Made by a program: the position numbers and the translations under genes. Below, one piece after another: positions 3,001-17,428 of a stretch of 57,347 bases of DNA (position 1 is the first letter of the stretch; each line of letters starts with the position of its first letter). The stretch covers positions 1-57,347 of the forward strand of contig JAKACB010000002.1 in assembly GCA_021796445.1 (NCBI GenBank). The letters run 5' to 3'. Source of the DNA: Nanobdellota archaeon (GTDB lineage: Archaea; Nanoarchaeota; Nanoarchaeia; Parvarchaeales; Parvarchaeaceae). Below the pieces are notes generated by a model. It was given only the letters and a program-made list of their open reading frames with translations, was not told the origin of the DNA and did not search any database.

Positions 3001-3883
3001 CCAGCAGATGGTAAACTTTTCGTATTCAGGCTACAAGCAGTACATAAATCTAAGCAGCGGTCACCAGTTCCAGAACGTAGAGTTTTTCAATACAACAAAT
3101 GGAGCATTGATAGACAGTTGGCTTGAAAGCTACACTTCCAGCTATGCCATCTTCTGGATTAAATTGCCAAATGGAATACCTGCTTCTGCAACATTGACTG
3201 ACATTGCATTAGGTTTCGCTTCAAATGACACCAATTTATTAAATAATGACACAACGGGGGAGGCTCCACAGCTTTCTCCAACGTACGGTAAATACGATAA
3301 TGGAGCCAATGTATTCAATTTCTATGATAACTTTAAAGGAACTAGTTTGAATATGACTAAATGGGCTATAACTAGTGGCTCTCCCTCAAATTTAGTTGTT
3401 AATAACGGACTTGAAATGATAAATGGCTCACAAATCCAAAGCAAATTTTTAGTTGCTCCTGGAATACTTGAAGCAAACAATACTTATGTGAGCTCTAATG
3501 AAGGTGGTGATGGTTTAGAGTATAACGTGACAGCGGTTAGTGATTCAAGTATACAAGAAAATAATCAGCCTTATTGGGGTCACGGAAATGTTTATGGAGT
3601 ATATCAAGGGACGGAAGAGGACTTAAATTCCAATTTAGCAGATTATACCAGCGGTATATTTGGTTTATGGTGGCTTTCAAACGGCTCTGCGTATGGATAT
3701 CATAACAATGTAGAAATGGGTTCGACTACAATTACAAATATACCATACTCTAACTCATATGTGGTATTGTATGCAGGCCCTCATAGCGGAACTGGGTATT
3801 CCGATTACACATGGGTTTTATCTAGAGCTTATCCTCCAAGAGGGATAATGCCTTCCATTAGCTTTGGCAGAATACTACCGTAA
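2..3883 (+). CDS. Giant modular surface protein with DUF2341 repeats, 5' partial
   Basis: The first ATG is at 26, but the reading frame is open back to base 2. The residues encoded at 2-60 match the internal repeats at about 1613-1672 (TTIQDVAIGF, then NDTNLFN), so the gene starts before the window. Three similar blocks are visible: the tail of one at 2-750, one at about 1370-2390 and one at about 2945-3883. The two complete blocks have a DUF2341 module (PFQQM...FQNVEFFNTT...WLE.YTS.YAIFWIKLPNGIPA) followed by a lectin-like beta domain opening with GEAPQLS.TY and closing with RAYPP.G.MP; the first keeps only the end of the DUF2341 module. Two F-x-E-x-LP-x-G-x-x-W modules lie at about 905-1340, and a probable Ig-like stretch at 2390-2930. 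Asn-Ser/Thr sites are abundant. It ends without a C-terminal membrane anchor, so attachment is N-terminal, through partners, or it is released. Role as adhesin or S-layer-associated protein is inferred. Confidence 0.85.
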   Translation, partial: DTTIKDVAMLFVNNDTNLFNTNTTGEAPQLSPTYAEYDDGANVFNYYENFAGSGLPAGWQELTSSGDTYTWDNGITFTNNGHSDYVSIGTTSAVASAGILELGVASGSNARPTIELATTDIQIEGGQPIYEYKEGYGQSYGMYSGDMQLETLTTSSTSTDNAKTAYNAPLIEGISWTTTGSELLEIIPNYVYNDAEIASEASTSVSLSTPLYVMLGQAASGSSSDTGGFTANWLRVRAYPPNGVMPTVKINKSTVTDLNFNFLTSPGSFTANANTSLDCRPEEDTVKAGTTYFFSNWNCTTTFNESALPKGNTWWVDYDGVNDSNKTGNVIRVNFNSSNFGIYTYSVGSNISCYSKGVGDLGTYNNISNWLCNKRFTEEGLPSGTNWSVDYDNKLSYSTSGVISFSNNFGNYSYNISNLTLSNGIYVPNSSSGHTISFGNLIINFSKHGLVTPQSIYKYAVLNITNSQTSATKQPFQQMINLTINSLNSKYINQTGKYSFQNVEFFNTTTGKVIDSWLENYTSKYAIFWIKLPNGIPANTTIQDVAIGFASNDTNLFNINSTGEAPQLSDTYAEYDDGVNIFNFYDNFAGTSLNTTKWSSFGSSGTSGSTSDIIVSNKLTLTGGGTGGLSHQTWIKTSLSSGSFDGSVVADVYENSPSTDTTFRWGFTNSNPTYFGGSSTQSFGEQIYDNGNWYANTDAGSSGTQNEIGSWSSLANTSVIWSIAATDTQILFYNPNTYSTLGSSGQTITTTIPAYSSSIGLSLTNEYTNPVYVYWVNVRAYPPNGVMPSVKLNTIVTKPITLFINGISNNNITMIYGKYSNFTVESDNHYVKLWREINNSVVSLTNLSGNISTYYNRFAAGKIKVIGGSNSTGIKNVSYYNIINKAAPILNLVSNPNKNYSYNGTSLIVNASISTIENQLNAKLYINGIFNQTINKSTVLNLSSYEGNYTIVLNTSGNQNYTADSITITRDIYLHSPSSLSDYLPINITNTQSVATPAPFQQMVNFSYSGYKQYINLSSGHQFQNVEFFNTTNGALIDSWLESYTSSYAIFWIKLPNGIPASATLTDIALGFASNDTNLLNNDTTGEAPQLSPTYGKYDNGANVFNFYDNFKGTSLNMTKWAITSGSPSNLVVNNGLEMINGSQIQSKFLVAPGILEANNTYVSSNEGGDGLEYNVTAVSDSSIQENNQPYWGHGNVYGVYQGTEEDLNSNLADYTSGIFGLWWLSNGSAYGYHNNVEMGSTTITNIPYSNSYVVLYAGPHSGTGYSDYTWVLSRAYPPRGIMPSISFGRILP

Positions 3884-5393: not shown

Positions 5394-5843
5394 ATGTATA
5401 TGGAAGTCAAAGAAGGAGAGATGTTTCCTGATTTTAGGCTTAAAGCAGACGATGGAAAAGAAGTTTCTTTGTCTGATTTAAAGGGCAAAAAGAGTGTTGT
5501 GTATTTCTACCCCAAGGACGATACTCCTGGATGTACAAAAGAGGCATGCAGTTTTAGGGACAATATCAATTCCTTTAAATCTTTGGGAATTCCAGTGTTT
5601 GGAATAAGCGTTGACAGCATCGAATCACATAAAAAATTCAAAGGTAAATATTCTATTCCATTTATATTATTAAGCGATTCTGATAAAAAAATCGTCACAA
5701 AGCTTGGTATAAAATCTCTGACAGGAACCGCTTCAAGGGTTACATTTATCTTAGATGAAGACGGCAAAATCCTGAAGGTATACCTGAAGGTTTCCCCAGA
5801 TAAGCACGCAGAAGAGATTTTGGCGTTTCTTAAAAAGGAATAA
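5394..5843 (+). CDS. bcp: Bcp/PrxQ-type thiol peroxidase
   Basis: Reduces hydrogen peroxide and organic hydroperoxides in the cytosol, using a thioredoxin-like partner for recycling. The motif DDTPGCTKEAC gives the peroxidatic Cys47 and the resolving Cys52, with the C-x4-C spacing of two-cysteine atypical Bcp proteins. The thioredoxin fold runs the whole 149 residues, starting with the family opening G-x-x-x-PDF. The start may instead be the second Met at 5400; both are compatible with the leaderless TATA at about 5371. The gene is divergent from nth. The two small membrane genes that follow are 43 bases downstream and may be cotranscribed. Confidence 0.95.
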   Translation: MYMEVKEGEMFPDFRLKADDGKEVSLSDLKGKKSVVYFYPKDDTPGCTKEACSFRDNINSFKSLGIPVFGISVDSIESHKKFKGKYSIPFILLSDSDKKIVTKLGIKSLTGTASRVTFILDEDGKILKVYLKVSPDKHAEEILAFLKKE

Positions 5844-5886
5844 ACACCAAGTAAAACTATAAATAAACTCAATTAATAAAGATATT

Positions 5887-6252
5887 ATGCTAAACATAGC
5901 TTACACAGTGATATTCGCTGTGCTTTTTGTAGGCGGAATAGTCAGTTCAGTTTTTTCAGGCATAACTTTCTTCGCCATTTTCAAGCACAGAAAAGACAAG
6001 GCACCATTGACTTCTTTCTTTCTAAATAAAGATTCAGCTACAAAGGAGTTAAACATGTTTATTTATCCTGCATCGATGCTTTTTTTAACAGGGTTATTCA
6101 CATTTATCCAAAAGCTACTTAACAATTATCCTTCTTTGTACACCATTGATCAAGTTTTCTTCTATCTTGCTTATCTTTTTGGGATAGCTGCGTTGTTTGT
6201 TGTTGTATACATATCATTTCGCTGGTTCAAGCTTTTTAGGAGGTTTGTATGA
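5887..6252 (+). CDS. Membrane cassette copy 1, protein A (KHRKDKAPL family)
   Basis: Unknown function. The 121 residues form about three transmembrane helices (roughly residues 5-32, 55-75 and 88-112). A cytoplasmic-looking loop after the first helix carries KHRKDKAPL, and the C-terminus is FRWFKLFRRFV. The same loop (KHRQDKTPL, KHKKDRAPL) and the same C-terminal W-x3-F-x2-[FY]-[VLI] end recur in the proteins at 7109 and 16671, so the three are paralogues. Its stop codon overlaps the start of the next gene in an ATGA arrangement, implying translational coupling and a two-subunit membrane complex. No catalytic residues are evident. Confidence 0.8.
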   Translation: MLNIAYTVIFAVLFVGGIVSSVFSGITFFAIFKHRKDKAPLTSFFLNKDSATKELNMFIYPASMLFLTGLFTFIQKLLNNYPSLYTIDQVFFYLAYLFGIAALFVVVYISFRWFKLFRRFV

Positions 6253-6554
6253 ATATTGACTTTATATACGGAATTATTTCATTGATTTTAGGAGCATTGA
6301 TGCTGTTGTTTATAATAATGTTAAGAAAGAAGCTGCATAAAAATCCAACCTTGTTTTTATCTTCATTTTACATTAAAAAGTACAAGCAATTTGCATTCGT
6401 GTTCTTCTTCTTGACTACTGTTGTTTTAGCGATAAATTATGGGGTAACTACATTTGTTTCATTAAGTAATCCCACAACTTTAATATGGGAATACGGTAAC
6501 ATCGTATTGTTTACTGCTCTTACTTTGTTTTTCCTCTTTATGTCTTTATCTTAA
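6249..6554 (+). CDS. Membrane cassette copy 1, protein B
   Basis: A 101-residue membrane protein translated from an ATG that overlaps the preceding stop by four bases. About three helices can be seen (residues 5-25, 45-66 and 80-100). After the first helix there is a basic stretch (MLRKKLHKNP) and then KKYKQF before the second helix. The B partners of the other two cassettes share the layout: helix, basic loop with an Asn-Pro, helix, helix. Sequence identity among B proteins is low, so the relationship rests mainly on position and topology. The gene ends four bases into the convergent speD gene. Function unknown. Confidence 0.75.
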   Translation: MNIDFIYGIISLILGALMLLFIIMLRKKLHKNPTLFLSSFYIKKYKQFAFVFFFLTTVVLAINYGVTTFVSLSNPTTLIWEYGNIVLFTALTLFFLFMSLS

Positions 6555-6997
6555 AAGTCATTAAATACTTTAGCTTCATTTTCGCTTGAAGGGTTGCTTC
6601 TGTCTGCGCTGAAAACTTTGTAGCTTTTAGGCTTCATCATTGAAACAATGTAGTCGAATGCAAGTGCGGGGTTGCTTTCGTTTCCGCAGGAATATATGTC
6701 AACGGTAGCATACCTGCTTTCCGGCCACGTATGCAATGATATGTGACTTTCAACTATTAACGCTATTATTGATACTCCTCCAATATCCGGAGAATTTATT
6801 GTATTAAATTGTCTTTCCATTATGTCGATTATATGGAGGTTACCCGCGTTTGCTGCAGCTATTACCGATTCTTTAAGATATTCAAGGTTTTTCAGAATAG
6901 AATCATCTACATCGTATAGATTACCAAAAACATGCTTCCCTATTACTGGAACCAAATTGCTTTCGAACAAACCCACTTTTTTGCTGCTTTTTCTCAT
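6551..6997 (-). CDS. speD: S-adenosylmethionine decarboxylase proenzyme (pyruvoyl type)
   Basis: Makes decarboxylated AdoMet, the aminopropyl donor for spermidine. The proenzyme cleaves itself between Glu83 and Ser84 in VESHISLHTWPE, and Ser84 becomes the pyruvoyl group. His89 and Cys104 lie at +5 and +20 from that serine, the same spacing as the Ser63, His68 and Cys83 set of the Thermotoga enzyme. Length 148 fits the small prokaryotic class. Some archaea use this fold as arginine decarboxylase, so the substrate is likely but not certain. No spermidine synthase gene lies in the window. It converges with the preceding membrane gene, overlapping it by four bases. Confidence 0.93.
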   Translation of the reverse strand: MRKSSKKVGLFESNLVPVIGKHVFGNLYDVDDSILKNLEYLKESVIAAANAGNLHIIDIMERQFNTINSPDIGGVSIIALIVESHISLHTWPESRYATVDIYSCGNESNPALAFDYIVSMMKPKSYKVFSADRSNPSSENEAKVFNDF

Positions 6998-7108
6998 TGA
7001 TTATTATTGAACAATTCTATTTAAATAATTATCTATTTAGAGTAGCTAAATTTTATTGAAAATAAACAAAACAAAAATACTTTTATATTCATGTTAGATT
7101 TATAGATT

Positions 7109-7456
7109 ATGGTATTATACGAAGATTTTCATTTTTACTGGGTAGTATTCGAAGTAGTGAACGGTTTAATCATCTCAATTCTAAGTGCAATAAATATTTA
7201 TGTGCTTTACAAACACCGGCAAGATAAAACTCCTCTGGTCAGATGGGCATTAAATGAGAAGGATTCAAAGAATAACTTCTCGGTTCTTTTATCTGCTTCT
7301 ATTTTATTTATTATTGTTTTTGTGGTCTATTCTTTTGGTTCAGTTACTAACAGCGAATCCATCAAAATGGCTGCAGAACTTTTAGGAACTTTTACATACC
7401 TGTTGGTCAGCTACGTTATAATTGGCTGGTCTAAGGTTTTTGTGGGGTATCTATGA
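7109..7456 (+). CDS. Membrane cassette copy 2, protein A (KHRQDKTPL family)
   Basis: 115-residue paralogue of the protein at 5887. The N-terminal helix (about 12-33) is followed by the YKHRQDKTPL loop, then two more helices (about 55-72 and 85-105) and the C-terminal end GWSKVFVGYL. A TATA-like ttttatattc about 28 bases before the ATG suggests a leaderless transcript divergent from speD. The stop overlaps the next start (ATGA). Function unknown; paralogy is judged from the loop motif, topology and C-terminal pattern, as overall identity is low. Confidence 0.75.
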   Translation: MVLYEDFHFYWVVFEVVNGLIISILSAINIYVLYKHRQDKTPLVRWALNEKDSKNNFSVLLSASILFIIVFVVYSFGSVTNSESIKMAAELLGTFTYLLVSYVIIGWSKVFVGYL

Positions 7457-7773
7457 TGAACAGCGGGTTTTATGAAGCAATTGCTATTGCATTTATAGGT
7501 GTACTGATAGCTTTGTCTGTGATAAGATTTACGGCGGCATTTTATAAAAATCCTTTGAAAGCAGTTCAACTAATAAGGCTTGACAAAAATTCCATTACAG
7601 TCTTCATAATATTCCTCGCAATGAATTTTATCTTTTTGGCAGGTTATCTGTTGCAGTTATTTAATTCTTTAAATAATTCCGATTTATTGGGCATATTAGT
7701 TTATGCTTTAGGTACTTCATTTTTCTTTTTTGCTCTTACGAGTATCATATCAAAAAAATACGAACTAGATTAA
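7453..7773 (+). CDS. Membrane cassette copy 2, protein B
   Basis: 106-residue membrane protein overlapping the preceding gene by four bases; a second ATG three bases on is an equally good start. Three helices are visible (about 6-28, 48-68 and 78-98), with FYKNPLKAVQLIRLDKN between the first two, recalling HKNP in copy 1 and NNPKR in copy 3. The C-terminus is short and charged (SKKYELD). Its 3' end lies eight bases from the end of the IS605-family element, so the insertion stopped just short of breaking it. Function unknown. Confidence 0.7.
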   Translation: MMNSGFYEAIAIAFIGVLIALSVIRFTAAFYKNPLKAVQLIRLDKNSITVFIIFLAMNFIFLAGYLLQLFNSLNNSDLLGILVYALGTSFFFFALTSIISKKYELD

Positions 7774-7780
7774 TTTTGGT

Positions 7781-7950
7781 GTGAACTACTCCAAGCTTAC
7801 GCATGGAGCTTCTCGCTTCAACGAACTGACTTGCTTCAGTTTATGAAGTAGAGGTCTATTCTCCACTAGCATACTGGCAGGTTCCCTACCAAATAACGCT
7901 TTTATGATTATATTTCTTGCTGCGTTTATATCTCTGTCTATTTCTATTTT
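7781..7950 (-). ncRNA. Predicted omega RNA scaffold at the tnpB 3' end
   Basis: In IS605-family elements the guide RNA covers the last part of tnpB and the right end, and its guide is the flanking DNA. Here the scaffold would end at the minus-strand ttcac at 7785-7781, and the guide would be the bases at 7780-7761, which belong to the 3' end of the neighbouring membrane gene. The terminal hairpin at 7789-7808 is visible; the 5' boundary is a guess. Confidence 0.35.
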
Positions 7951-8991
7951 ACAATATGGACATTTGAATATCTTTACCGATAAATCCAAATGCTCTATGT
8001 TTTTCTCCTCGCAGACACTACAAGTTTGTGTAGTGTCTTTTGGATTTACTTTTACTAAAATCCTGCCAGCACTTTCAGCCTTGTAGGATAAATATGAAAT
8101 AAACAAGCTCCAGGCAGCATCATATATACTTTTAGATAGATGGTGATTTCTGGCCATACCTTGGATATTTAGGTTTTCAACTGCGATAAAACCATAGTTT
8201 TTCACGTATTCTGTGGATAATTTGTGTGCAAAATCCTTCCTTTGGTTCTGTAGGTGCTCATAAGCTTTGTTTAGTCTTAGCTTTATTTTGTTCCTTCTGT
8301 TGGATCCTTTCTTTTTCCTTGCCAATTGCCTTTGAATCAAAGCTATCTTATCTGCCGTCTTCTGCAGAAATCTAGGATTTTCCACAAACCTGTAATTGCT
8401 GTCAGCAAGGAAATGCGTTACTCCCACGTCTATACCAACTGCTTTTTCAGAGGTATTTGGCTTAACTTTTATCTGATTCTTTTCTTGATGCGGATTTTCA
8501 ACTTGGATGCAGGCATACCACTTGCCTGCCCTCTTGCTTATTATTATTCCCTTGACATTGCCTTTTATTTCCCTGTGAAACTCCGCTTCTACTTTTCCTA
8601 CTTTTGAAAGGATTATTTTCTTGTTTCCTATGATAAAACCGCTTTGATTGTAGAATATTGATTTGAAATGGTCATAACTTTTGAACCTTAGCTTTCCTAT
8701 TTTGTAGCCTTTCCTCTTTCTTCCTGCTAATGTATGGATGTTGTTCCATAATTGCTGATTTACCATCTGCAATGTCTTTGAGTAGACGTTTTTCAATTCA
8801 GGCTTGTCTTCTTTCAGCTTTACTAAAAGCTTTTGGGTGTCATATCTCTTTAGCTTTTTCCCTTCGTCTTTTGCCTTGTTCAGTTCCTCTAATAATTTGT
8901 TGTAAGTCCATTGGCATAATTCCAATTGTATATTCAGTTCCGTTTCTACGACTTTGCTTGGATACAACCTAAATTTTTTATAACTCCTCAT
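7786..8991 (-). CDS. tnpB: TnpB, RNA-guided nuclease of IS605-family element
   Basis: TnpB proteins cut DNA under the guidance of an omega RNA made from the element's 3' end, and help keep the element in place. All RuvC parts are here: GIDVGVTHF (first Asp), VENLNI (Glu) and DRDINAARN (last Asp), with a zinc ribbon CSVC...CPYC between the last two. The 401-residue length is full-size and the frame is intact, so the protein looks active. A minus-strand TATA-like aagtataaaac lies about 25 bases before the start. The C-terminal codons overlap the right-end hairpin, as usual when the omega RNA overlaps the gene. Confidence 0.93.
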   Translation of the reverse strand: MRSYKKFRLYPSKVVETELNIQLELCQWTYNKLLEELNKAKDEGKKLKRYDTQKLLVKLKEDKPELKNVYSKTLQMVNQQLWNNIHTLAGRKRKGYKIGKLRFKSYDHFKSIFYNQSGFIIGNKKIILSKVGKVEAEFHREIKGNVKGIIISKRAGKWYACIQVENPHQEKNQIKVKPNTSEKAVGIDVGVTHFLADSNYRFVENPRFLQKTADKIALIQRQLARKKKGSNRRNKIKLRLNKAYEHLQNQRKDFAHKLSTEYVKNYGFIAVENLNIQGMARNHHLSKSIYDAAWSLFISYLSYKAESAGRILVKVNPKDTTQTCSVCEEKNIEHLDLSVKIFKCPYCKIEIDRDINAARNIIIKALFGREPASMLVENRPLLHKLKQVSSLKREAPCVSLE

Positions 8992-9119
8992 ATTTTATCT
9001 ACTCTTTTTATGTTTTATACTTTTACCGTCTTTCATCCCCTATCTCACAAAAGGGGAATTCTCGGCGGACTTGTTAAAAAAAGAAATGCTTTTATAAGAT
9101 TAGTCTTCTTTTAAAGAGC

Positions 9120-9638
9120 ATGTTTAGGAAAAATACAAATAACGTGTTTAAAGGGCTTGATAAAGTAAGAAAGAATCTGGATTTAATTTTAGATAATTTG
9201 AAAAATGAAGATCCAGAAAATATTTTGAAATTTCCATATAATGATCTATCGGATTACTTCAAGAATATAAAAATTGATCTTGTGAGAAAAAGAAAGGAAA
9301 GTTCAATGTTTCCAGGGAAATCAGGCGATTATATAATAAAGAGTGGAAGCACTTATGACTATGACAGCAGTTTTATGAATGACAGCATTCCTTTGTTTTA
9401 TATGTCAGGGATATACAGAACAAGAAGTAATGAAAATGAAGAAAGAGAGTACTTCGGCATAAAATTGAATGGAAAGATTGTGCCTACTGCGTATATAAAA
9501 CATTTGTATTCAGGTAATTACAAAGTATACTTGAATTATGACATTATTAAGGATCTAGATAACGAATCATTTAAAAAAATTATAGCAGCGACTAGCATTA
9601 GGTTATCTGATTACAGAAGTGTTTCTCATTTCAGTTAA
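9120..9638 (+). CDS. Hypothetical protein, 172 residues
   Basis: Not recognised. It is soluble-looking and rich in Lys, Asn, Asp and Tyr, with an N-terminal helical part (residues 1-60), a glycine/serine-rich turn region (70-90) and a probable beta-rich core (about 95-150, with YFGIKLNGKIVPTAYIKHLY). No cysteine or metal motif stands out. It starts at an ATG right beside the IS605-family element, after a TATA-like cttttataag about 25 bases upstream, so it is probably leaderless. It heads a run of five orphan genes on one strand. Confidence 0.65.
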   Translation: MFRKNTNNVFKGLDKVRKNLDLILDNLKNEDPENILKFPYNDLSDYFKNIKIDLVRKRKESSMFPGKSGDYIIKSGSTYDYDSSFMNDSIPLFYMSGIYRTRSNENEEREYFGIKLNGKIVPTAYIKHLYSGNYKVYLNYDIIKDLDNESFKKIIAATSIRLSDYRSVSHFS

Positions 9639-9712
9639 ATGTTAATGACAGTTAATTATTTATAATATAACTTGTATATAGTTTACAATTAAAAAGTGAT
9701 TAAAATAACCAT

Positions 9713-10621
9713 ATGACTAAGAAATACTCAGATATTGAAAAATTACTGAAATCATTGCCGTATAAAAACGATGCAGACGGCAACCCTACTTTAAAAAAGG
9801 AATTTGTAAGGAACTCAAATTACTTCAGTGATTTTGGCTTAGTAGTGAATGAAAGATACATAGCAGATACCTTTCCAAACGTAAAAAGCAGAGAATACCT
9901 GCAGTTTAATAATCTATATAACACTGGCTTTTTTGACGATTATTTTGCAAGACAGTACAAATTGTTAAATGACCTTTATGCAGCAAAACCAGAAAACTTT
10001 TCAAAACCAGTTGCATTGATTGTAGATGATTCAGCCAAAAGAGTAGGTTACATAACTATGCCTTTTGAGGGTAATGAAAAAAGAAACTACATACCAAAGG
10101 CGGTTTCTTTGCAAGACTATCTAAGCAATTACGGAAGCTGGGATGAAAAATTGATAGCTGAGAAAATAAGTAGAGTAACTTCTCTTCAGGATCTGATCCC
10201 AAGGGATGAACTTAATAATTTTATACTTAAGAAGGGTATTAAACGGCTTTCATATGGTGAAAGGTACCTTAAGGAATACGCTGCAAGAATAGACGTTTAC
10301 AAGGATAGAATGGAAGAACTTAAGGAAATAAAGAAGCAGATAAATGATACTGTAAAATACATAAATCAGAATGGCTTATCACACAATAATCTCTACCTTG
10401 AAAATATAATCATTTACTGGGATGAGGATAAGAAAGCAAAGGTGGGGTTTTTAAATCCAATCAATAAACAGGACGTTAAATCACATTTCTTTGCATCCGA
10501 TGAGCACAGGGTCAAATCGATAAATCGTAGCATAAAATGGGCAGAATTTAAACAGAACATACTAATTAACAAGTATACTGAAAAATACAAATCGCTTTAT
10601 CCCGGATTCAGGATAAGATAA
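9713..10621 (+). CDS. Probable protein pseudokinase
   Basis: 302 residues. The stretch QNGLSHNNLYLENIII (about 219-234) lines up with a kinase catalytic loop of the form H-G-D-L-x-x-x-N, keeping His224, Leu227 and Asn231 but with Asn226 where the catalytic Asp should be. Further on, VGFLNPIN replaces the Asp of the metal-binding DFG-type motif with Asn248. A hinge-like GYITMPFEG lies at 112-120. Both catalytic acids are therefore lost, which suggests a nucleotide-sensing or scaffold role; no clear P-loop Lys is assigned. The next gene starts seven bases downstream, so the pair is probably one operon. The kinase relationship is inferred from motifs and needs a fold comparison. Confidence 0.55.
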   Translation: MTKKYSDIEKLLKSLPYKNDADGNPTLKKEFVRNSNYFSDFGLVVNERYIADTFPNVKSREYLQFNNLYNTGFFDDYFARQYKLLNDLYAAKPENFSKPVALIVDDSAKRVGYITMPFEGNEKRNYIPKAVSLQDYLSNYGSWDEKLIAEKISRVTSLQDLIPRDELNNFILKKGIKRLSYGERYLKEYAARIDVYKDRMEELKEIKKQINDTVKYINQNGLSHNNLYLENIIIYWDEDKKAKVGFLNPINKQDVKSHFFASDEHRVKSINRSIKWAEFKQNILINKYTEKYKSLYPGFRIR

Positions 10622-10627
10622 CCATAT

Positions 10628-11353
10628 ATGAAGGTTTTATTCCCTAAAAGAGAACCCAAGTGTATTGAAACCTATGAAGGTATAAATGAAGGTTCTAATC
10701 TGTATAAATTGCTGCTTGATACAGGACCAATAATAACAGAAGCATTACTCAACTTTTATGCAAAAAGAGGAGATAAAAGCTTATACAAAAATGTAATAAA
10801 CAAGAAAAATCTCCCCTATTTTTCCAGCTATGTAAACCATTTCAATTCTCTTGAAAAGAAATTGATCGTTACTGTAAGCGACAGCTATAGAGAACTTCAG
10901 GAAATGAAGGGCTATGAGCTGGAAGCAGTATACAGTGTATTGGATTCCAGTAATGATATCTGCGCAAGCAATGTGTGGGGAGAAAAGTATGCTAGTATCA
11001 TAAAAACAAGGAACAAAATATTGAAAGATGAAGTAGATCTTTCAAGCAGATTGCCAAAGCTTGATTACACTCATTCTGTAAATATAAATTATGCGCATCT
11101 TTTTTCGTATGATTTCAAAAAGGACATGGATCCCAGGAAGGCAAAGGCCTTGCTTTACAAGAAGACTTTAAAAATTGGACAGGACCCAAAGGTGTACACT
11201 GATTTTAATCTTTTCTCTTTAAAGGACAAAGCAAGCATTGCAATAGCATTTTACGGCAGGGCCATAGAGTTTACTGACTTCATGGATATGTTCAATTCGA
11301 TTAATTATTCCGTTAATAAAGGAGAGGGCAGTAACGTAAAACCTATATTATAA
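10628..11353 (+). CDS. Hypothetical protein, 241 residues, partner of pseudokinase-like gene
   Basis: Not recognised. It is largely alpha-helical and charged, with no signal peptide or membrane segment. Cysteines are few (Cys13 and one near residue 115). It starts seven bases after the pseudokinase-like gene with no room for a separate promoter, so the two are probably co-transcribed and may interact. The sequence ends in a hydrophilic tail after an aromatic-rich segment (FYGRAIEFTDFMDMF). Confidence 0.65.
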   Translation: MKVLFPKREPKCIETYEGINEGSNLYKLLLDTGPIITEALLNFYAKRGDKSLYKNVINKKNLPYFSSYVNHFNSLEKKLIVTVSDSYRELQEMKGYELEAVYSVLDSSNDICASNVWGEKYASIIKTRNKILKDEVDLSSRLPKLDYTHSVNINYAHLFSYDFKKDMDPRKAKALLYKKTLKIGQDPKVYTDFNLFSLKDKASIAIAFYGRAIEFTDFMDMFNSINYSVNKGEGSNVKPIL

Positions 11354-11402
11354 AGAAAATAAAGAAAAAGTATTAATAACATTGTTTATCTAATAGAACG
11401 CT

Positions 11403-11798
11403 ATGCAAAACAAAAAGACAGATATAGAGCAGGGAATTAACAGCAAATATAGGCATGCTTTAGAGGAGCTTTGTAATATTTCTACTGAGGAAATATCAAA
11501 GAAGGTATTCGGCATACAATATTCTAAGATTTTAGATGAGCTTTCGTATATTATTGAAAACGGTTATAAAAGCGTATTGGATTATTCTTATATTTTAAAC
11601 ACTGAAGAAATGAAGGACGTTACCAAAGATTATATGCGCTCTATTTTCGAAAAAGGCCTTAAAAAAGTCGAATACAGCAATTTTAATATAGATTTCAACG
11701 ATAAAAGACAAGTTAAAACCGGAATATACGGTTATACCGTAGCTCATGTGTACAAAATTCTTTTTAAGCAGAACAATGGTAAAAAATCAAGAGAATGA
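11403..11798 (+). CDS. Hypothetical protein, 131 residues
   Basis: Not recognised. A small, helical, charged protein with no motif, signal or membrane segment seen. It has its own AT-rich upstream region with a TATA-like tattaataac about 30 bases before the ATG. Its last 23 bases overlap the next gene in another frame, so the two are likely co-translated. It belongs to the orphan run at 9.1-12.1 kb. Confidence 0.6.
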   Translation: MQNKKTDIEQGINSKYRHALEELCNISTEEISKKVFGIQYSKILDELSYIIENGYKSVLDYSYILNTEEMKDVTKDYMRSIFEKGLKKVEYSNFNIDFNDKRQVKTGIYGYTVAHVYKILFKQNNGKKSRE

Positions 11799-12072
11799 AC
11801 GATTGGAAGAGCTGCTCTTTGATTGCAGTTTAACGTTGTTTGGAAAGCCGAATTTGGATGTTTTTTCAAGGGCTAACGATCTCAAAAGTCATTTAGAGAC
11901 AGATTCATTGGTTTACTCTTCAAGCTATGAGGTTTTTAATCCAGAAACTGTTGCGATTGACCTTCATTTTTACACCATATCAAACAAATACGAATTAAAA
12001 AACAAGCTTATCAACCTTTCAAATCAGTATTCTTTTGGCTTATCTTATAAGATACACGAACTTAAGCAGTAA
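11776..12072 (+). CDS. Hypothetical protein, 98 residues
   Basis: Not recognised. The frame is open from 11746, but the ATG at 11776 gives a more natural hydrophilic N-terminus (MVKNQENERLEELLFD) and a shorter overlap with the previous gene. It looks like a small alpha/beta protein: a helix, then an alternating strand segment (VYSSSYEVFNPETVAIDLHFY), then another helix. It converges with the superoxide dismutase gene, 12 bases away. Confidence 0.55.
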   Translation: MVKNQENERLEELLFDCSLTLFGKPNLDVFSRANDLKSHLETDSLVYSSSYEVFNPETVAIDLHFYTISNKYELKNKLINLSNQYSFGLSYKIHELKQ

Positions 12073-12084
12073 AACACAAAGAGA

Positions 12085-12705
12085 TTACTGCTTTTTGTAA
12101 ACATCCTGGAATTTTACAAATCTTTCATTCAGTTTTTTCCAGTCCAAATTATTGAAGAATGGCTCTAGGTATTTTGCTTTGTCTGGCCCATAATCAACAT
12201 AAAATGCGTGTTCATAAACATCTAAAGCTATTATGGGTATTGAACCCCACACTGCTCCGTCGTTATGTACGTCTGCTAAAAATGTTCTAAGTTTATTGTC
12301 AGTAGGGTCTATTGCAAGTATAGCCCACCCTCTGGCTGCCTTCGCAGTCGCCATCATATCGAGCTTAAAATTTTCAAAGCTTCCGAAGTCCTCATTTATC
12401 TTTTTTATAAGTGGCATATCCTCCGAATACTTGCCGTCTCCTCCGAACATTTCGAAATAAAGTTCATGAAGCAGCTGTCCGCTTGCATTGAATGTTTCTT
12501 CTTTCTTTAACGATCTAAACTCGCTGTAATTTGCATTTGCGGCGGCTTTATCAACTGTTTTAAGCTTGTTGTGTACTTCATTTCTTTTCTTTACATAGCC
12601 TGCGTAGTGCACATCATGGTGGAAACTTATTTGTTTCTCAGAAAACCCTTCTAAAGATTTATAATTTAGTTTTTGTACTTCATACTGATCATCGTAGTTT
12701 GCCAT
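12085..12705 (-). CDS. sod: Superoxide dismutase, Fe/Mn type
   Basis: Converts superoxide to oxygen and hydrogen peroxide in the cytosol. Metal-binding regions are present: FHHDVHYAGYV near residue 29, the His in GQLLHELYF (His80), and the pair of ligands in ALDVYEHAFYVDYG (D-x3-H). The C-terminal hallmark VWGSIPIIALDVYEHAF is intact. At 206 residues it is full length. Iron or manganese use cannot be decided here. Upstream on the minus strand there is ttttatatact and then cggtga a few bases before the ATG. It is divergent from the padR operon. Confidence 0.95.
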   Translation of the reverse strand: MANYDDQYEVQKLNYKSLEGFSEKQISFHHDVHYAGYVKKRNEVHNKLKTVDKAAANANYSEFRSLKKEETFNASGQLLHELYFEMFGGDGKYSEDMPLIKKINEDFGSFENFKLDMMATAKAARGWAILAIDPTDNKLRTFLADVHNDGAVWGSIPIIALDVYEHAFYVDYGPDKAKYLEPFFNNLDWKKLNERFVKFQDVYKKQ

Positions 12706-12766
12706 AAAATCACCGATAATTATAACACAGTTATAGTATATAAAATTTTTTATGTTGTAATAGAAA

Positions 12767-12829
12767 AGTATTTAAATATAAAATCTATCTTTAATAGATA
12801 TCGCAAAACGATATTAAGAGGTGAAAAAT
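12767..12829 (+). promoter_or_regulatory. padR-operon promoter with two operator-like inverted repeats
   Basis: A TATA-like tttaaatataaa lies at about 12771-12782. Just downstream are two perfect inverted repeats side by side: ATCTAT-N5-ATAGAT at 12783-12799 and ATATCG-N5-CGATAT at 12798-12814. A Shine-Dalgarno gaggtg follows at 12818-12823. Repeats between the TATA box and the start codon suit repression, probably by the PadR protein encoded next. A very similar CGATAT repeat occurs at 44898-44917. Confidence 0.6.
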
Positions 12830-13348
12830 ATGAAAAATAAAGAAGATGACTTTAATGAAATAAACTTCGGATTCAATATAGACCCGAATATGGTACATAA
12901 ACTTGCACACTCAATGCATGGGATAACTCGTGGATTTGGAATAAAGTACTGGATACTTATGTTAGTCTCAAAGGAAAAAATGACTGGTGCACAGATGATA
13001 GACAAGATATACGAAATGAGCTTCGGTTTCTGGAGGCCTTCTCCGGGAAGTATATACTCTATATTAAAATATCTGTCAGAAAGCGGTTTTGTGAAAGTAG
13101 AACAGAATGACAACAAAAAATACTACTCGATTACTGATAAAGGGAAGGAGTATCTAGACAGTTCCTGGTTCCCATGGAGATCTGCTTCTTCATTTATGAA
13201 CAAGGACGAGGGAACGAGCATAGATGAGACCATAGAGACTTTAGATAATCTATCTGAGTTTATATCAGAAAAGGAAAAGCTTCTCAGCAAGGAAAACAAG
13301 AAAACATTAAAAAAGATAGATGATAGGCTGCATAGTTTGCTGAAGTAA
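12830..13348 (+). CDS. PadR-family transcriptional regulator
   Basis: Winged-helix repressor that likely controls the ABC exporter following it. The PadR signature is at FWRPSPGSIYSILKYLSESGFVKV, with the wing YYSITDKGKEYL after it and a long charged helix at the C-terminus for dimerisation. The GTG at 12821 is part of the Shine-Dalgarno gaggtg, so the ATG at 12830 is the start. The ABC ATPase gene starts seven bases after the stop, and two palindromes sit in the promoter, which points to autoregulation of a padR-ABC operon. PadR regulators often respond to small toxic compounds exported by the pump they control. Confidence 0.88.
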   Translation: MKNKEDDFNEINFGFNIDPNMVHKLAHSMHGITRGFGIKYWILMLVSKEKMTGAQMIDKIYEMSFGFWRPSPGSIYSILKYLSESGFVKVEQNDNKKYYSITDKGKEYLDSSWFPWRSASSFMNKDEGTSIDETIETLDNLSEFISEKEKLLSKENKKTLKKIDDRLHSLLK

Positions 13349-13354
13349 ACTAAA

Positions 13355-14134
13355 ATGGAATACTCCATAGTTGCGGATAAATTGACAAAGAAATTCGGGG
13401 ATTTTACCGCAGATAATGCAATAAGCTTGAAGGTAAAAGATGGTGAAATATTCGGTATTTTAGGCCCAAATGGAGCAGGAAAAACCACTTTGATAAGCAT
13501 GCTTACCACTTTGATAAAGCCGACAAGCGGACATGCATATGTACTTGGACATGACGTAATGAAAGACGCATTGGAAGTTAGGAAGTCTATAGGAGTCATA
13601 ACAGAAAAAGTAACTATGTATCCGCCGCTTACTGCAGAGGAGAACTTAATGTTTTTTGGAAGATTATACGGAATAAACAAGAAGGATCTTGAACAGAGGA
13701 TAAACAAGGGTTTAGAAGAGTTCCAGCTGTCTAAATTCAGAAAAAGACCCGTAGGCACCTTTTCTTTGGGTATGAAAAGGAGATTGGATTTAGTTAGAGT
13801 GCTGTTAAATGAACCCAAGGTATTCTTTTTGGATGAACCTACGGTTGGTTTAGATCCAATAACAGTTTCGTTCATAAAGAAAAAAATAAGGGACATAAAC
13901 AAGAAAGGAAGCACAATAATACTTACAACACATATAATGCAGGATGCTGACGAGCTTTCCGACAGGGTTGCATTGATAGATCACGGAAATTTAATGGTCT
14001 GTGATACTCCTAGAAATTTAAAGAAAAAATTGGGCAAAAATGCAACCTTAGAGAATGTTTTCATACACTACGCAGGTGCTGAATTGAGAGATGAGACTGA
14101 AAAGATGAGCCTAGCTCCAAGGAGAGGCATGTGA
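13355..14134 (+). CDS. ABC transporter ATP-binding protein, drug-export type (DrrA-like)
   Basis: Drives export by the adjacent ABC-2 permease. Walker A is GPNGAGKTT (37-45). The signature loop reads FSLGMKRR (137-143) where LSGGQ is usual, as commonly seen in the DrrA/CcmA class. Walker B is VFFLDEP (156-162), followed by the D-loop GLDP and an H-loop in TTHIMQDADELSDR. The 259 residues include only a short tail after the nucleotide-binding domain. The stop codon overlaps the permease start (TGATG), so expression is coupled. Confidence 0.93.
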   Translation: MEYSIVADKLTKKFGDFTADNAISLKVKDGEIFGILGPNGAGKTTLISMLTTLIKPTSGHAYVLGHDVMKDALEVRKSIGVITEKVTMYPPLTAEENLMFFGRLYGINKKDLEQRINKGLEEFQLSKFRKRPVGTFSLGMKRRLDLVRVLLNEPKVFFLDEPTVGLDPITVSFIKKKIRDINKKGSTIILTTHIMQDADELSDRVALIDHGNLMVCDTPRNLKKKLGKNATLENVFIHYAGAELRDETEKMSLAPRRGM

Positions 14135-15333
14135 TGGTATTCAAAGCCTTAAATGATGCATTTATTGTAGCTAAAAGAGATCTGATAGAGCTTTACAGGA
14201 CACCTTTTAGACTTATAATGATGTTTGTCTTTCCAGTACTTATAATAATGTTGTTTGGTTTTATGTTTCCTTCGACATCTAGCTTTAATGGCGTTCACAT
14301 AGGCATAGTAAACAACGACAGCGGGTTTACTTTGAATGGACAGACAATTTACTTAAGTAATTCCTTCATATCCCTTGTAAAATACAATTCCAGCATTACC
14401 TTTAGCAATTATTCTTCGTTGGCTTCTGCAGAATCCGCTTTAAGGGCCGGAACTATTGATTCAATATTGTACTTCCCAAAGAATTTCACAAGCGTAAGTC
14501 TCTCTGATCAGCCTACTCAATTAAAGCTGGTAACAAACCCAACTTCTCCTACGCTAGAGGAATACATAAATGCTAAGGTATCAGTAGCGTCAACCGTTCT
14601 TTCTGCAGAAATCATCAATGGTACAGTTTCTAAATTGAATTCAGAGCTTGTTGCTCTACCAAAGATAAACCCACAGTTTGTAATTTCCCCAGTAGTTGTA
14701 AGCTCTGTTCCAATACTTTCCGGGAATTACTTTGATTTTATCGGCCCTGGCTTAATAATGCTGCTAAGCATGATGGCAGGTTTAACTGCTTTAGGTTCAG
14801 CATTAAGCAGGGAAAAGGAAGATGGAACTATAACGGCTGTAATGCTTTCTCCGATAAGAACCGGTTCCTTCCTTACTGGAAAGATGCTTTCACAGTTGGT
14901 AAGAAGCCTAATACAGTCTGCTGTGGTTGTTATTCTTGTAATTCTTCTTTTCCATATGAGTTTTAATGGTAATATCCTACTTACTGCAGCCATATTGATT
15001 CTAGGGATATTCGGTTTTCTAGGTTTAGGGCTTTTAGTAACCGCATTGACAAAAGACCAGGAAACCTCTCAGCTTTTGCTAAATCTAGTTTTCTTTCCAA
15101 TGCTGTTTTTGAGCGGAGTTCTTTATCCACTGCAGGAATTACCAGCAGTTGTAGCAGACATAGCGAGGTTCCTGCCGTTGACTTATGGAGTTCAGGCTTT
15201 CAGGCAGGTAGTTGTCTTCAATGCTTCGATTGGTTCAGTTTGGTCATCAATGCTTATACTGTTTTTATTTGGCGCGGTCTCACTTGCAATTGCGGTTCCA
15301 GTCTTTCTTATAAAGAAGAGCAGTGGTAATTAG
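14134..15333 (+). CDS. ABC-2 type permease
   Basis: Membrane partner of the preceding ATPase. One helix near residues 28-48 is followed by an external domain of about 150 residues with several Asn-Ser/Thr sites, then five helices in the last half, the classic ABC-2 layout (FIGPGLIMLLSMMAGLTALGS and LFFPMLFLSGVLYPLQ belong to the conserved core). The start is taken as the ATG at 14134, with ggag about nine bases before it; a GTG three bases earlier is possible. Substrate is unknown; PadR control suggests a drug or membrane-active compound. Confidence 0.9.
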   Translation: MVFKALNDAFIVAKRDLIELYRTPFRLIMMFVFPVLIIMLFGFMFPSTSSFNGVHIGIVNNDSGFTLNGQTIYLSNSFISLVKYNSSITFSNYSSLASAESALRAGTIDSILYFPKNFTSVSLSDQPTQLKLVTNPTSPTLEEYINAKVSVASTVLSAEIINGTVSKLNSELVALPKINPQFVISPVVVSSVPILSGNYFDFIGPGLIMLLSMMAGLTALGSALSREKEDGTITAVMLSPIRTGSFLTGKMLSQLVRSLIQSAVVVILVILLFHMSFNGNILLTAAILILGIFGFLGLGLLVTALTKDQETSQLLLNLVFFPMLFLSGVLYPLQELPAVVADIARFLPLTYGVQAFRQVVVFNASIGSVWSSMLILFLFGAVSLAIAVPVFLIKKSSGN

Positions 15334-15370
15334 GATAATTATAAAAGTATGGGTTGAGGTATTAAAATAG

Positions 15371-16171
15371 ATGGACAATGACTTAAAGGAGCTTATAAAA
15401 AGCAAGGAGCTTTTCCTTTTGGACGGAGACGGAACCTTATACCTTTGGGATAAACCATTTTTATCTTCTTCTGCTTTTTTGAGAAAGTTAATTCAGCTTA
15501 AAAAGAAATTCATAATTCTAAGCAACAATGATTCAGAGAGCAAGAAGAAAAGGTTAATGTTTCTGGATAAGATGTTCAAAATCAAACTAAAGGAGGAGCA
15601 GCTTCTCCTTCCAAACGATTTAGTAGAAGATTTTTTAATTAAAAAGAATATCAAAAGGTTTGATGGCGTAATCTCAAATGATTTCTTAAGGGAACTTGTG
15701 TCAAAGGGATTTGTATTTGATAAAGAAAAACCCGAAATAGTAATAGTTGGATTTGATGTAAATTTAAACTATGAAAAATTGATGAGGAATATAGATCACA
15801 TAAATAAGGGAGTCAAGTTTCTACTTACGCATAATGACCCTTTGTGTCCTTACAAGGGAGGAAAGGAGATACCCGACGCTGGCTTGATAATAAACCTTAT
15901 AACACGGGCCGTGAAAAGGGAACCAGATTACATGTTTGGGAAGCCATTTAAGTCTACCGTAGATTACATTACCCAAAAATATAAAATTAAAAGAGATAAA
16001 ATGCTGATAGTGGGAGATAGAATAAATACAGACATAAAAATGGCCAATGAAAGTGGGATAGACTCCATTTGGATAATTAATGATCAGGCTGCAAAAAAAG
16101 AAGGGCAGTACAGACCAAATGAAAAAGTGCATTCAATTGATGCTCTTTACAATCAAATAAAGAATCTGTGA
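15371..16171 (+). CDS. HAD-superfamily phosphatase, class IIA (NagD/phosphoglycolate-type)
   Basis: Hydrolyses a small phosphate ester. Motif I is LLDGDGTL (nucleophile Asp18, acid Asp20), motif II is ILSNND, and the Mg-binding motif IV is VGDRINTDIKMA, with a C2-type cap between. At 266 residues it fits NagD-like enzymes. The usual DxDGT motif has Gly in the middle, which is uncommon. Substrates in this class include phosphoglycolate, glycerol phosphate and nucleotides. The glycerol genes 1.3 kb downstream make a glycerol-phosphate substrate worth considering, but that is only context. Confidence 0.85.
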   Translation: MDNDLKELIKSKELFLLDGDGTLYLWDKPFLSSSAFLRKLIQLKKKFIILSNNDSESKKKRLMFLDKMFKIKLKEEQLLLPNDLVEDFLIKKNIKRFDGVISNDFLRELVSKGFVFDKEKPEIVIVGFDVNLNYEKLMRNIDHINKGVKFLLTHNDPLCPYKGGKEIPDAGLIINLITRAVKREPDYMFGKPFKSTVDYITQKYKIKRDKMLIVGDRINTDIKMANESGIDSIWIINDQAAKKEGQYRPNEKVHSIDALYNQIKNL

Positions 16172-16205
16172 ATTTTTTATTTCTTTTTATTTAAATTGTT
16201 TCTTT
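16172..16205 (+). terminator. T-rich terminator after the HAD gene
   Basis: Runs of T (attttttatttctttttattt, then gtttct) follow the stop directly, with no strong stem, as in archaeal termination on oligo-T tracts. Confidence 0.5.
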
Positions 16206-16269
16206 GCTAGGCACCATTCTTATTTATGCACATAATGCAGTTTATTAATCTCCAAACCCTGTTATTACT

Positions 16270-16671
16270 ATGATAAACGCTGAAATAAAAGAATATTCTC
16301 CAGGAAAGTGCAATATAGGGCCCAAGGAAATCCGGAAAAGGTACCTGGCAGGGTTTTTAGGATTCATTGTTGCTGCAATACTTTTTGTCTTTCTTTCATT
16401 TTTTAGGGTAGGTTACTTACTCTTTATAATATTGATATTCCCCCTGTTTTTGGGGTTTATAGGTTTTTATCAGGGATACAAAAAGTTTTGTGTTGCAAAT
16501 GCCATCGCAGGCATTTATGTATTTTCTGATACTAAAAAAGGCTCAATAAAGGACAAGAAATCACACAGAATTGACTTAAAGAAAGCGCTCACCTTAATAA
16601 CATACTCATTTATATCTGCCGCAATGCTTACAATGGTTATAACCTTAATTGTGTATTACCTGGTGATTTGA
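16270..16671 (+). CDS. Small membrane protein with CNIG motif, upstream of cassette copy 3
   Basis: 133 residues. A hydrophilic N-terminus carries GKCNIGPKEIRKRY, then there are two close helices (about 28-72), a cytoplasmic loop rich in Lys and Asp (SDTKKGSIKDKKSHRIDLKKA), and a last helix (about 108-132). The Cys-Asn-Ile-Gly-Pro segment looks like a functional site, but I cannot name the family. Its stop overlaps the next start (TGATG), so it is coupled to the third copy of the two-gene membrane cassette and may be an extra subunit. Confidence 0.7.
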   Translation: MINAEIKEYSPGKCNIGPKEIRKRYLAGFLGFIVAAILFVFLSFFRVGYLLFIILIFPLFLGFIGFYQGYKKFCVANAIAGIYVFSDTKKGSIKDKKSHRIDLKKALTLITYSFISAAMLTMVITLIVYYLVI

Positions 16672-17036
16672 TGTTATATATTAAAACAACGGAAGAAATA
16701 ATTTTTGGGTTACTTAGCATACTTGGGGTTTTTGCAGTTTACTACAGTCTAATAATATCGAGAGCGTTGATAAAACATAAAAAAGACAGAGCACCTCTGC
16801 TAAGCTATCTTCTAAACCCGGAGAGGATAAGAACTCCCTATTTTGTATTTGCTGGTTTATTTGCATTCCTTACTGGTTTAATGGCTTTTTTGGACTTCAT
16901 TGATGGCGGGTTTAATCCAACAACAGCTTTGCAGTATTCTACATTCTTTTTTGGGTTTATTTTTGCAATAGTTACTGCGGTATTTATTATACTGGACATG
17001 CATTTTTGGTACACGAGGTTTAAAAGATTCATATGA
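16671..17036 (+). CDS. Membrane cassette copy 3, protein A (KHKKDRAPL family)
   Basis: 121 residues from the ATG at 16671; a TTG at 16668 is not needed. The topology matches the copies at 5887 and 7109: a first helix (about 10-32), the loop KHKKDRAPLLSYLLNP, two more helices (about 55-75 and 85-108), and the end FWYTRFKRFI. The stop codon overlaps the next gene by four bases (ATGA). This is the third occurrence of the A-B pair within 12 kb. Function unknown. Confidence 0.8.
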   Translation: MLYIKTTEEIIFGLLSILGVFAVYYSLIISRALIKHKKDRAPLLSYLLNPERIRTPYFVFAGLFAFLTGLMAFLDFIDGGFNPTTALQYSTFFFGFIFAIVTAVFIILDMHFWYTRFKRFI

Positions 17037-17428
17037 TAGAGAATGGAATTCTTGGCATAGTCGGAATTTTAACTGGTACAGTGATACTGATATCAACTTT
17101 AGGTTTTATTTATTTTATGCGTTCTGCATATAGGTATGGTTCCAGAGATGAAGCGAACAAATTTTTTGGTAGTTATATGTTCAATAACCCCAAAAGATAC
17201 ATAATAGCATTTTTGTTTTTAGTGTTAGCGGGCATGTCCTTGTCAATAGGGTTCATATTTGCATTTATAGCTAGCTTTTTTATGAGTCCATTGGTCATAT
17301 GGGAACTTCTTAGCTCCGTTTCCCTTATTGCGCTTGCGGGTTTTTTCGTAACATTTACAAGCATAGATCATCCAAAATCTTTTCTAAACTATATAGCATT
17401 TCTAAAGGCAAAAAATAAAAAGAAGTAG
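17033..17428 (+). CDS. Membrane cassette copy 3, protein B
   Basis: 131 residues, starting inside the stop of the preceding gene. Three helices are seen (about 6-28, 55-82 and 86-108). The loop between the first two (YRYGSRDEANKFFGSYMFNNPKRY) is longer than in copies 1 and 2 but keeps the Asn-Pro and basic character, and there is a lysine-rich tail (KAKNKKK). The gene is followed by a T tract. Function unknown. Confidence 0.75.
   Translation: MIENGILGIVGILTGTVILISTLGFIYFMRSAYRYGSRDEANKFFGSYMFNNPKRYIIAFLFLVLAGMSLSIGFIFAFIASFFMSPLVIWELLSSVSLIALAGFFVTFTSIDHPKSFLNYIAFLKAKNKKK

Follow-up and report, generated by a model that had tools for sequence, protein, structure and literature searches.

Comparison with Known Systems

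Pairs of small membrane proteins occur in several described systems. SdhC and SdhD, the two small subunits of succinate dehydrogenase (SDH), have three helices each, in which a haem-ligand His is conserved; SMR pairs have four helices and a conserved Glu in the membrane. The two-gene unit described here, A-B, codes for two small membrane proteins and occurs three times (A1-B1, A2-B2 and A3-B3, Table 1) in a window of 57,347 nucleotides (the whole stretch of DNA that was analysed, contig JAKACB010000002.1) from Nanobdellota archaeon, a Parvarchaeum-type archaeon with a genome assembly of 0.91 Mb in 14 contigs (G000). A and B resemble SdhC and SdhD as small three-helix subunits, and SdhC and SdhD were among the weak, non-significant structural matches of the A1 and B1 models, but A-B has no conserved helix His (none is kept at 80%) and is not encoded with sdhAB. 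With the paired SMR and SemiSWEET proteins, A-B shares the small subunits, the two-gene units and a presumed heteromer; it differs in that A1 and B1 have three long helices, the sole helix position of A kept at ≥80% is a Gly, almost no helix residues are conserved, and no family match was above chance among the matches listed.

In gene arrangement, the unit resembles termination-reinitiation gene pairs, a general mechanism and not a protein family, which likewise have the ATGA overlap, an intragenic ribosome-binding site and an enrichment for heteromer subunits (accessible text of PMC6728339 and PMC10666635). According to the accessible text, of seven Haloferax volcanii pairs from which the intragenic site was removed, six showed reinitiation reduced by ~20 to 80% and one showed an increase (PMC6728339), and pairs at −8 to +10 nucleotides encode heteromeric subunits in 45.2% of cases compared with 5.6% of distant pairs, i.e., heteromeric complexes are 8.1-fold enriched among the close pairs (PMC10666635). 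For A-B, such coupling is predicted from sequence.

A-B is a lineage-specific two-gene family that was duplicated as a unit, with overlapping genes and a ribosome-binding-site match inside A. That the two proteins form a heteromer and are translationally coupled is, by inference, well supported.

A and B Are Inherited as a Unit

An earlier note on this DNA had proposed the three A-B pairs, and all six open reading frames (ORFs) were recovered, with ATGA at each of the three junctions. The A proteins of the window are related by global alignment (z 10.4 for A1/A2, 12.9 for A1/A3 and 6.2 for A2/A3, each beating all 300 shuffles). Divergence is greater among the B proteins (z 6.3 for B1/B2, 5.2 for B1/B3 and 1.9 for B2/B3, the last within the shuffle range), and because A-vs-B comparisons, used as a yardstick, reach z 4.8 (A2/B2) and 4.5 (B1/A3), the B1/B3 similarity is weak taken alone. 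With profiles built from 42 A and 42 B proteins, a single B profile recovered B1, B2 and B3, and a single A profile retrieved all A proteins.

Across 33 genomes of the archaeal family, 22 had matches to the A profile, 92 places in all (E ≤ 0.01). Eighty of these places were examined with their neighbourhood (the 12 left out comprise six in G001 and G026, four broken or relic copies, one contig-end fragment and one weak match in a long frame), and 78 pairs remained after removal of the broken copy and of the first A of an A-A-B arrangement carried by G029. Over these 78 pairs, the distance matrices of A and B correlated with r = 0.926, compared with a maximum of 0.244 when partners were shuffled within genomes (2000 shuffles); for 35 non-redundant pairs (<65% identity), r was 0.83, and none of 10,000 permutations was as high (maximum 0.28). 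Since the correlation far exceeds the shuffles, A and B duplicate jointly with no visible swapping of partners, in line with the duplicated and diversified cassette suggested in the earlier note. Homology between A and B themselves is not claimed: a comparison of the two profiles gave suggestive scores (probability 55 in one run and 29 in another), a few pairwise scores (A2/B2 among them) pointed the same way, and the B profile matched A2-type genes weakly (E 1.7e-4 to 0.005), but the self-vs-reversed controls were equally high (A vs reversed A 22, B vs reversed B 38; 4 for both A vs reversed B and B vs reversed A).

Junction and Expression Signals

Of 74 A-B neighbours left after deduplication, 58 share a 4-base overlap, compared with 41 of 390 other same-strand neighbours ≤100 bp apart in the same stretches, a rate about 7.5-fold higher for A-B (Fisher p 3e-32, a value that overstates independence because the genomes are related). 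The junctions of the 80 A loci are ATGA in 60, GTGA in one and of other types in 18, and one locus (the broken copy) has no B call. The A5-type junction is mostly an 8-base overlap, and a few other loci have gaps or longer overlaps. The A-B pairs thereby show the two properties expected of a translationally coupled heteromeric pair, overlap beyond the local background and co-evolving fixed partners. The overlap statistics, the intragenic ribosome-binding site and the heteromer enrichment of close pairs in the accessible part of PMC10666635 make a heteromeric complex, as first suggested, probable.

A ribosome-binding-site match of at least 4 bases precedes B, in the final codons of A, in 85% of 27 non-redundant ATGA junctions, compared with 45% (maximum 67%) when these codons were redrawn synonymously, and the mean match length is 4.89 bases compared with 3.34 in the redrawn set (standard deviation 0.29, maximum of 500 redrawings 4.11). 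Arg codons in the tail of A (AGG 33, AGA 11, CGN 2) differ from those in the rest of A (AGG 28, AGA 32, CGN 16), with p = 0.005 for the AGG/AGA preference. Because the ribosome-binding site of B is embedded there, the conserved C-terminal [RK]RF of A is maintained partly at the DNA level; the C-terminal motif that had been described as a protein feature is present in A1, A2 and A3, but part of it is the ribosome-binding site of B. A DNA signal alone probably does not account for the conservation of [RK]RF, and the A5 type, despite its different junction, also has RF near the end, followed by four or five residues. The A-B junction would be a compact case in which the conserved end of a protein also serves as a translation signal.

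Upstream of A the signals are of another kind. A ribosome-binding-site match of at least 4 bases was found in only 4 of 35 non-redundant loci (none before A1), and a TATA-like box about 27 bases from the start in 22 of 35, versus 8.7 in shuffles (maximum 17). Start codons were picked by rule and a few may be wrong. A3 has an alternative start, the TTG at 16668. These upstream regions look as expected for leaderless or short-leader archaeal transcripts.

Protein Features and Topology

The AlphaFold models of A1 (helices 2-37, 48-78 and 88-120; mean pLDDT 76.8) and B1 (long helices 3-31, 46-73 and 79-100, short helix 33-42; mean pLDDT 76.6) are of moderate confidence. Charge counts in the 35 non-redundant pairs gave a net positive loop 1 in 33 A and all 35 B proteins and a net positive tail in 34 A and 28 B, compared with only 3 A and 4 B for the outer loop and 5 A and 1 B for the N-terminus. 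An N-out/C-in topology is predicted for both proteins, which would place the KH-x2-D loop of A in the cytoplasm, a point that the earlier note had proposed to check.

In A (A1 numbering), the positions kept at ≥80% are K33, H34, D37, A39, P40 and L46 of loop 1, W113, R119 and F120 of the tail, and the helix Gly G99, i.e., 9 of 30 positions in loop 1 and the C-terminus versus 1 of 69 in the three helices, and nearly all conserved A residues are thus predicted to be cytoplasmic. The loop and C-terminal motifs described for A are present in all three window proteins. The loop motif also recurs in related genomes, as do the ATGA overlaps: the exact form KH-x2-D-[KR]-[AT]-PL is found in 30 of 78 A proteins and a wider form, KH-x2-D-[KRN]-[AT]-P-[LIFMW], in 58. 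The "basic loop with Asn-Pro" attributed to B fared less well. NP is present in B1, B2 and B3 (and anywhere in the sequence in 51 of 78 B proteins), but there is no shared site: in B1 and B2 it is a KNP at the start of the loop, the NP of B3 (NNPKRY) falls elsewhere in the alignment, and the description is therefore loose. Most of the proteins are Cys-free (68 of 78 A, 66 of 78 B), the conserved His of A (28 of 35) sits in loop 1, and 44 of 78 B proteins have no His. The outer loop of A varies in length, and the A5 type, the A6 type and the copy on contig C25 of G032 have longer N-termini, which are read as an extra helix plus an outer segment.

Copies in the Genome and Distribution in the Family

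The source genome holds six A-B pairs and a broken copy, and not the three copies first counted. Besides those of the window, these are A4 (C11:31735), A5 (C5:2265) and A6 (C2:65439), and a seventh A, at C11:36748, is broken by stop codons. The broken A is followed by an intact 140-aa ORF (the two together at L121:12749-13541, on C11) that is 37% identical to B3 over the match (E 4e-14) and gave no match with the B profile; it reads either as a partner outliving its A or as one soon lost. B6 on C2, an ATGA-overlapping ORF of 109 aa, has no B-profile match in G000, and its counterparts in four other genomes match weakly (E 0.003-0.007). G003 and G031 carry seven intact A genes apiece, with a B behind every one. 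In G009, the stretch from the PrxQ-like gene to A2, which in other genomes holds A1-B1, contains an A relic with a stop codon (C46:6489-6602). A two-gene unit in six or seven copies is unexpected in a streamlined DPANN genome.

The B profile matched the same 22 of 33 family genomes as the A profile, and in these profile searches both A and B were absent from the identical 11. On a tree of one gene, the thermosome, with 30 of the 33 genomes (G019, G022 and G032 are left out, and several forks are weakly supported), presence and absence of A/B need three label changes. This all-or-none pattern would fit an ancestral family with a few wholesale losses. Some sister lineages have no copy at all, and lineages with and without A/B can thus be compared cleanly. 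Class-wide profile searches covered 379 genomes, and in the 346 outside the family only marginal partial matches were obtained, two for A and three for B (the best, with E 4.7e-5, spans 68 model positions and lies in a frame of 422 aa), which we take as chance; single-protein searches beyond the family gave one match of A2, to a frame of 888 aa in G051 (E 2.8e-4), likewise taken as chance, and none for A3. The named database relatives are Candidatus Parvarchaeota or Parvarchaeum. Fourteen values of the nonsynonymous to synonymous substitution ratio (dN/dS, NG86) between the A and B genes of the window and their orthologues in G003, G019 and G014 range from 0.03 to 0.20 (several of the 14 comparisons have dS > 1, and four further comparisons were saturated), and both genes appear to be under purifying selection.

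Genomic Addresses and the Rusticyanin Cluster

In all 12 A1-type loci examined, A1 lies downstream of a PrxQ-like gene on the same strand. A2 has a decarboxylase gene upstream on the opposite strand in 9 loci, A4 and an FKBP-type gene lie head to head in 5 (the FKBP assignment comes from a test of a related neighbour), A5 follows the gene for a DoxX protein in 7, genus g2 included, and A6 follows a tryptophanyl-tRNA-synthetase-like gene (identified by reading of the ORF) in 5.

The order in stretch L122 is MscS, B5, A5, the DoxX protein, two rusticyanin-like proteins, two ORFs and a 596-aa ORF that is read as phosphoenolpyruvate carboxykinase. This arrangement fits the rusticyanin cluster published for Parvarchaeota, as far as the accessible part of that paper describes it (PMC5864196), and A5 and B5 most likely correspond to two hypothetical proteins of that cluster; the protein called multicopper there may be our DoxX match. 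The accessible text treats these ORFs as hypothetical proteins of one operon, and their membership in the A-B family is new here, so that two unnamed genes of the copper-protein cluster are probably now assigned. Rusticyanin-like matches were found in 10 of the 33 genomes, eight with the A5 type and two with distant matches (G021, and G016, which has no A/B). For the C25 copy of G032, the protein two bases upstream clusters with rusticyanin-like proteins, but the rusticyanin query matched nothing in G032, and this upstream protein shows no Cys where rusticyanin has its copper-binding tail.

The CNIG protein upstream of the third pair (C3) had been noted as coupled to it. It does overlap A3 by one base (TGATG), but it is not integral to the cassette: among 11 genomes with an A3 copy ≥56% identical, it is upstream in eight (G000, G001, G002, G003, G008, G014, G019 and G026) and was not found upstream of the A3-type copy in G009, G010 and G021, and we therefore regard it as an add-on. 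A protein search with C3 gave 14 matches, the named ones all from Parvarchaeota, with C-N-I-G invariant. Similar CNIG proteins are known from bacteria.

Searches for Named Families

The A-B family is without a name in every library searched, and the earlier note likewise knew no named family for it. Pfam and NCBIfam gave no named family for A or B with the six window proteins and C3, nor did NCBIfam with further copies. Pfam matches to all members of both 42-row alignments, mostly generic membrane families, were read as chance: among the matches listed, the commonest families match 3 of 42 A members, and the lowest E-values are those of DUF973 (4.8e-4, 2 of 42) and Tetraspanin (5.2e-4, 1 of 42). 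A profile search of the PDB gave squid rhodopsin as the best match for A (E 0.076, also read as chance) and nothing for B. In the literature searched on Parvarchaeota and Parvarchaeum membrane paralogs, including the accessible passages of PMC5864196 and PMC7779479, no description of the family was found.

Possible Function of the A-B Complex

Our tentative explanation, preferred to the alternatives below, is that A and B make up an obligate two-subunit membrane heteromer, which was duplicated as a unit, became specialised copy by copy and acts as a membrane platform or adaptor. Both genes would be transcribed together from a promoter that carries a TATA-like box, A would be translated from a leaderless or nearly leaderless start, and ribosomes finishing A would reinitiate on B through the ATGA, aided by the site in A's final codons, so that A and B are made in a coupled way. 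The conserved cytoplasmic face (the A loop KHxxDxAPLxxxxLN and the basic loop of B) may dock or assemble the complex alike in all copies, perhaps on a shared partner, and the variable helices, the outer loop and sometimes the extra N-terminal helix with its outer segment could be the fit to a copy-specific client, e.g., the extracytoplasmic cupredoxins of the rusticyanin cluster. The complex would then be an adaptor or platform rather than an enzyme, a role with a common cytoplasmic face that we infer from where conservation lies. A more specific version is doubtful as a whole: an unnamed obligate heteromer family, found only in Parvarchaeum-type DPANN, that serves as a general platform with a near-invariant docking face and interchangeable membrane and outer parts, numbers as many as seven intact pairs within <1 Mb of genome, has one pair fitted to the cupredoxin (rusticyanin) cluster and carries a C-terminal motif that is part embedded ribosome-binding site. 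If they are platforms or channels, the A-B pairs would show how an ultrasmall archaeon equips its membrane, including a copper-protein cluster proposed for iron oxidation.

Several points weigh against the platform explanation. The heteromer is argued from sequence, and the platform role draws on the location of conservation and on absences; hydrophobic channels likewise lack conserved polar residues. The neighbours vary among copies, with no common cytoplasmic partner among them, and neither cytochrome bd nor SdhB tracks the presence of A/B. The 4-base overlap is not universal (19 of 80 loci have another junction or no B call), synonymous redrawing by itself yields nearly half of the junctions with a 4-base match, and in the window the full AGGAGG stands only before B1, the sites of B2 and B3 being weaker by eye. 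The C-terminal conservation is also weaker as a protein signal because the ribosome-binding site partly explains it.

It is possible, though less probable than a platform, that A and B together form a heteromeric transporter or channel, i.e., a six-helix unit (or a multiple of it) that moves a small solute or ion, with its own substrate for each copy and with the cytoplasmic loop gating or assembling it. The single conserved helix position, a Gly, speaks against this, as do the structure searches: Foldseek found nothing in the PDB at E ≤ 0.001 for the A1 or B1 model, and the VIA-align matches of both models fall in the tool's "common arrangement" range; that no SMR or Mrp chain was listed has no weight either way. 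Family matches to transporters were weak, the best among the matches listed being MFS_1 (E 0.016, 2 of 42 B) and FLQE3 permease (E 0.016, one member). For MnhC/F/G of the Mrp type, A5 matched MnhC with E 0.016, far under the cut-off (15.8 bits vs 161.2), and the window proteins gave none. SemiSWEET or PQ-loop families had no match in the complete Pfam lists (E up to 1) of the six window proteins, and PQ-loop was absent from the best 25 of 37 and the best 25 of 29 Pfam families matched by the 42-row alignments.

That A and B form no complex at all, the overlap being genome compaction and the proteins acting separately in one process, seems unlikely. Other neighbours also have 4-base overlaps (those 41 of 390), 54.8% of the H. 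volcanii pairs at −8 to +10 nucleotides are classed as complex-free in the accessible part of PMC10666635, and the intact B3-like ORF persists behind its broken A on C11; against this stand the correlation of partners without swapping across the 78 pairs, the overlap excess and the ribosome-binding site kept in A.

More unlikely still are redox or respiratory membrane subunits in the manner of SdhC/SdhD, with A-B holding soluble redox proteins or carrying electrons or quinone. The address of A5-B5 in the rusticyanin cluster is a lead to such a role, but the helices have no conserved His or Cys and most A and B proteins are Cys-free, as described above. The sdhA-like and sdhB genes are followed by a separate 240-aa membrane ORF, a candidate SDH anchor of their own, and SdhB was found in 9 of the 11 genomes that lack A/B but not in 9 of the 22 that have A/B (many genomes being incomplete). 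With no helix His, this separate ORF and the wrong phylogenetic profile, A-B was rejected as the SDH anchor. Cytochrome bd occurs in 13 of 22 genomes with A/B and in 4 of 11 without, and no haem-copper oxidase was found in the 33 family genomes; the co-occurrence counts do not support the idea that the all-or-none pattern arose from a shared dependence on cytochrome bd or rusticyanin. The SdhB frame is 358-368 aa long in seven of the nine A/B-less genomes that have SdhB (252 aa in G015, 254 aa in G007); in the 13 A/B genomes with an SdhB it measures 256-270 aa.

A selfish or conflict module (a membrane toxin-antitoxin, a holin pair or a viral gene) is very improbable: the genes are small, multi-copy, lineage-restricted and absent wholesale from some lineages, but several copies keep fixed addresses in many genomes, selection appears to be purifying, a single-protein scan of viral contigs for close relatives of A1, A2 and A3 found none, and PADLOC and PHROGs gave only chance-level matches.

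Features of the Window and Other Observations

Table 1. Features of the A-B cassettes and their surroundings (window positions; aa, amino acids)
Feature	Position	Strand	Description
A1 membrane protein	5887..6252	+	121 aa, three helices; ORF call, A profile, AlphaFold model
B1 membrane protein	6249..6554	+	101 aa; ATGA overlap with A1; ORF call, B profile, AlphaFold model
A2 membrane protein	7109..7456	+	115 aa; ORF call, A profile
B2 membrane protein	7453..7773	+	106 aa; ATGA overlap with A2; ORF call, B profile
A3 membrane protein	16671..17036	+	121 aa; ORF call, A profile
B3 membrane protein	17033..17428	+	131 aa; ATGA overlap with A3; ORF call, B profile
C3, CNIG protein	16270..16671	+	133 aa; 5' of A3, TGATG overlap; optional partner
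Peroxiredoxin, PrxQ-like	5394..5843	+	directly 5' of A1; best NCBIfam match 134 bits, below the model cut-off of 260
TATA-like box	5858..5865	+	29 bases 5' of A1; TATAAA at −29
TATA-like box	7082..7087	+	27 bases 5' of A2
AGGAGG, proposed ribosome-binding site of B1	6238..6243	+	in the final A1 codons, 5 bases 5' of the B1 start

The A1-B1 pair is flanked by the PrxQ-like peroxiredoxin gene before it and by a gene for S-adenosylmethionine decarboxylase on the opposite strand after it; A2-B2 comes after the decarboxylase gene, and A3-B3 is preceded by a HAD phosphatase and the CNIG protein. A TnpB-like ORF (IS200/IS605 type by reading) at 7786-8991 on the minus strand lies between B2 and the next conserved gene and looks like a recent insertion, because in the relatives compared the next conserved gene adjoins B2. 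All five ORFs of a run at 9120-12072 (plus strand) recur with their order kept in G019 and G014, and the run is partly present elsewhere; the two of the five that were scanned (9120-9638 and 9713-10621) had no significant Pfam match. On contig C11 of the source genome (L121:25-1049), two further membrane proteins of 159 and 182 aa, which are related (they fall in one cluster) and have no Pfam match, are encoded with a 4-base overlap. A 1285-aa protein with DUF2341 repeats is encoded at 26-3883 of the window (plus strand).

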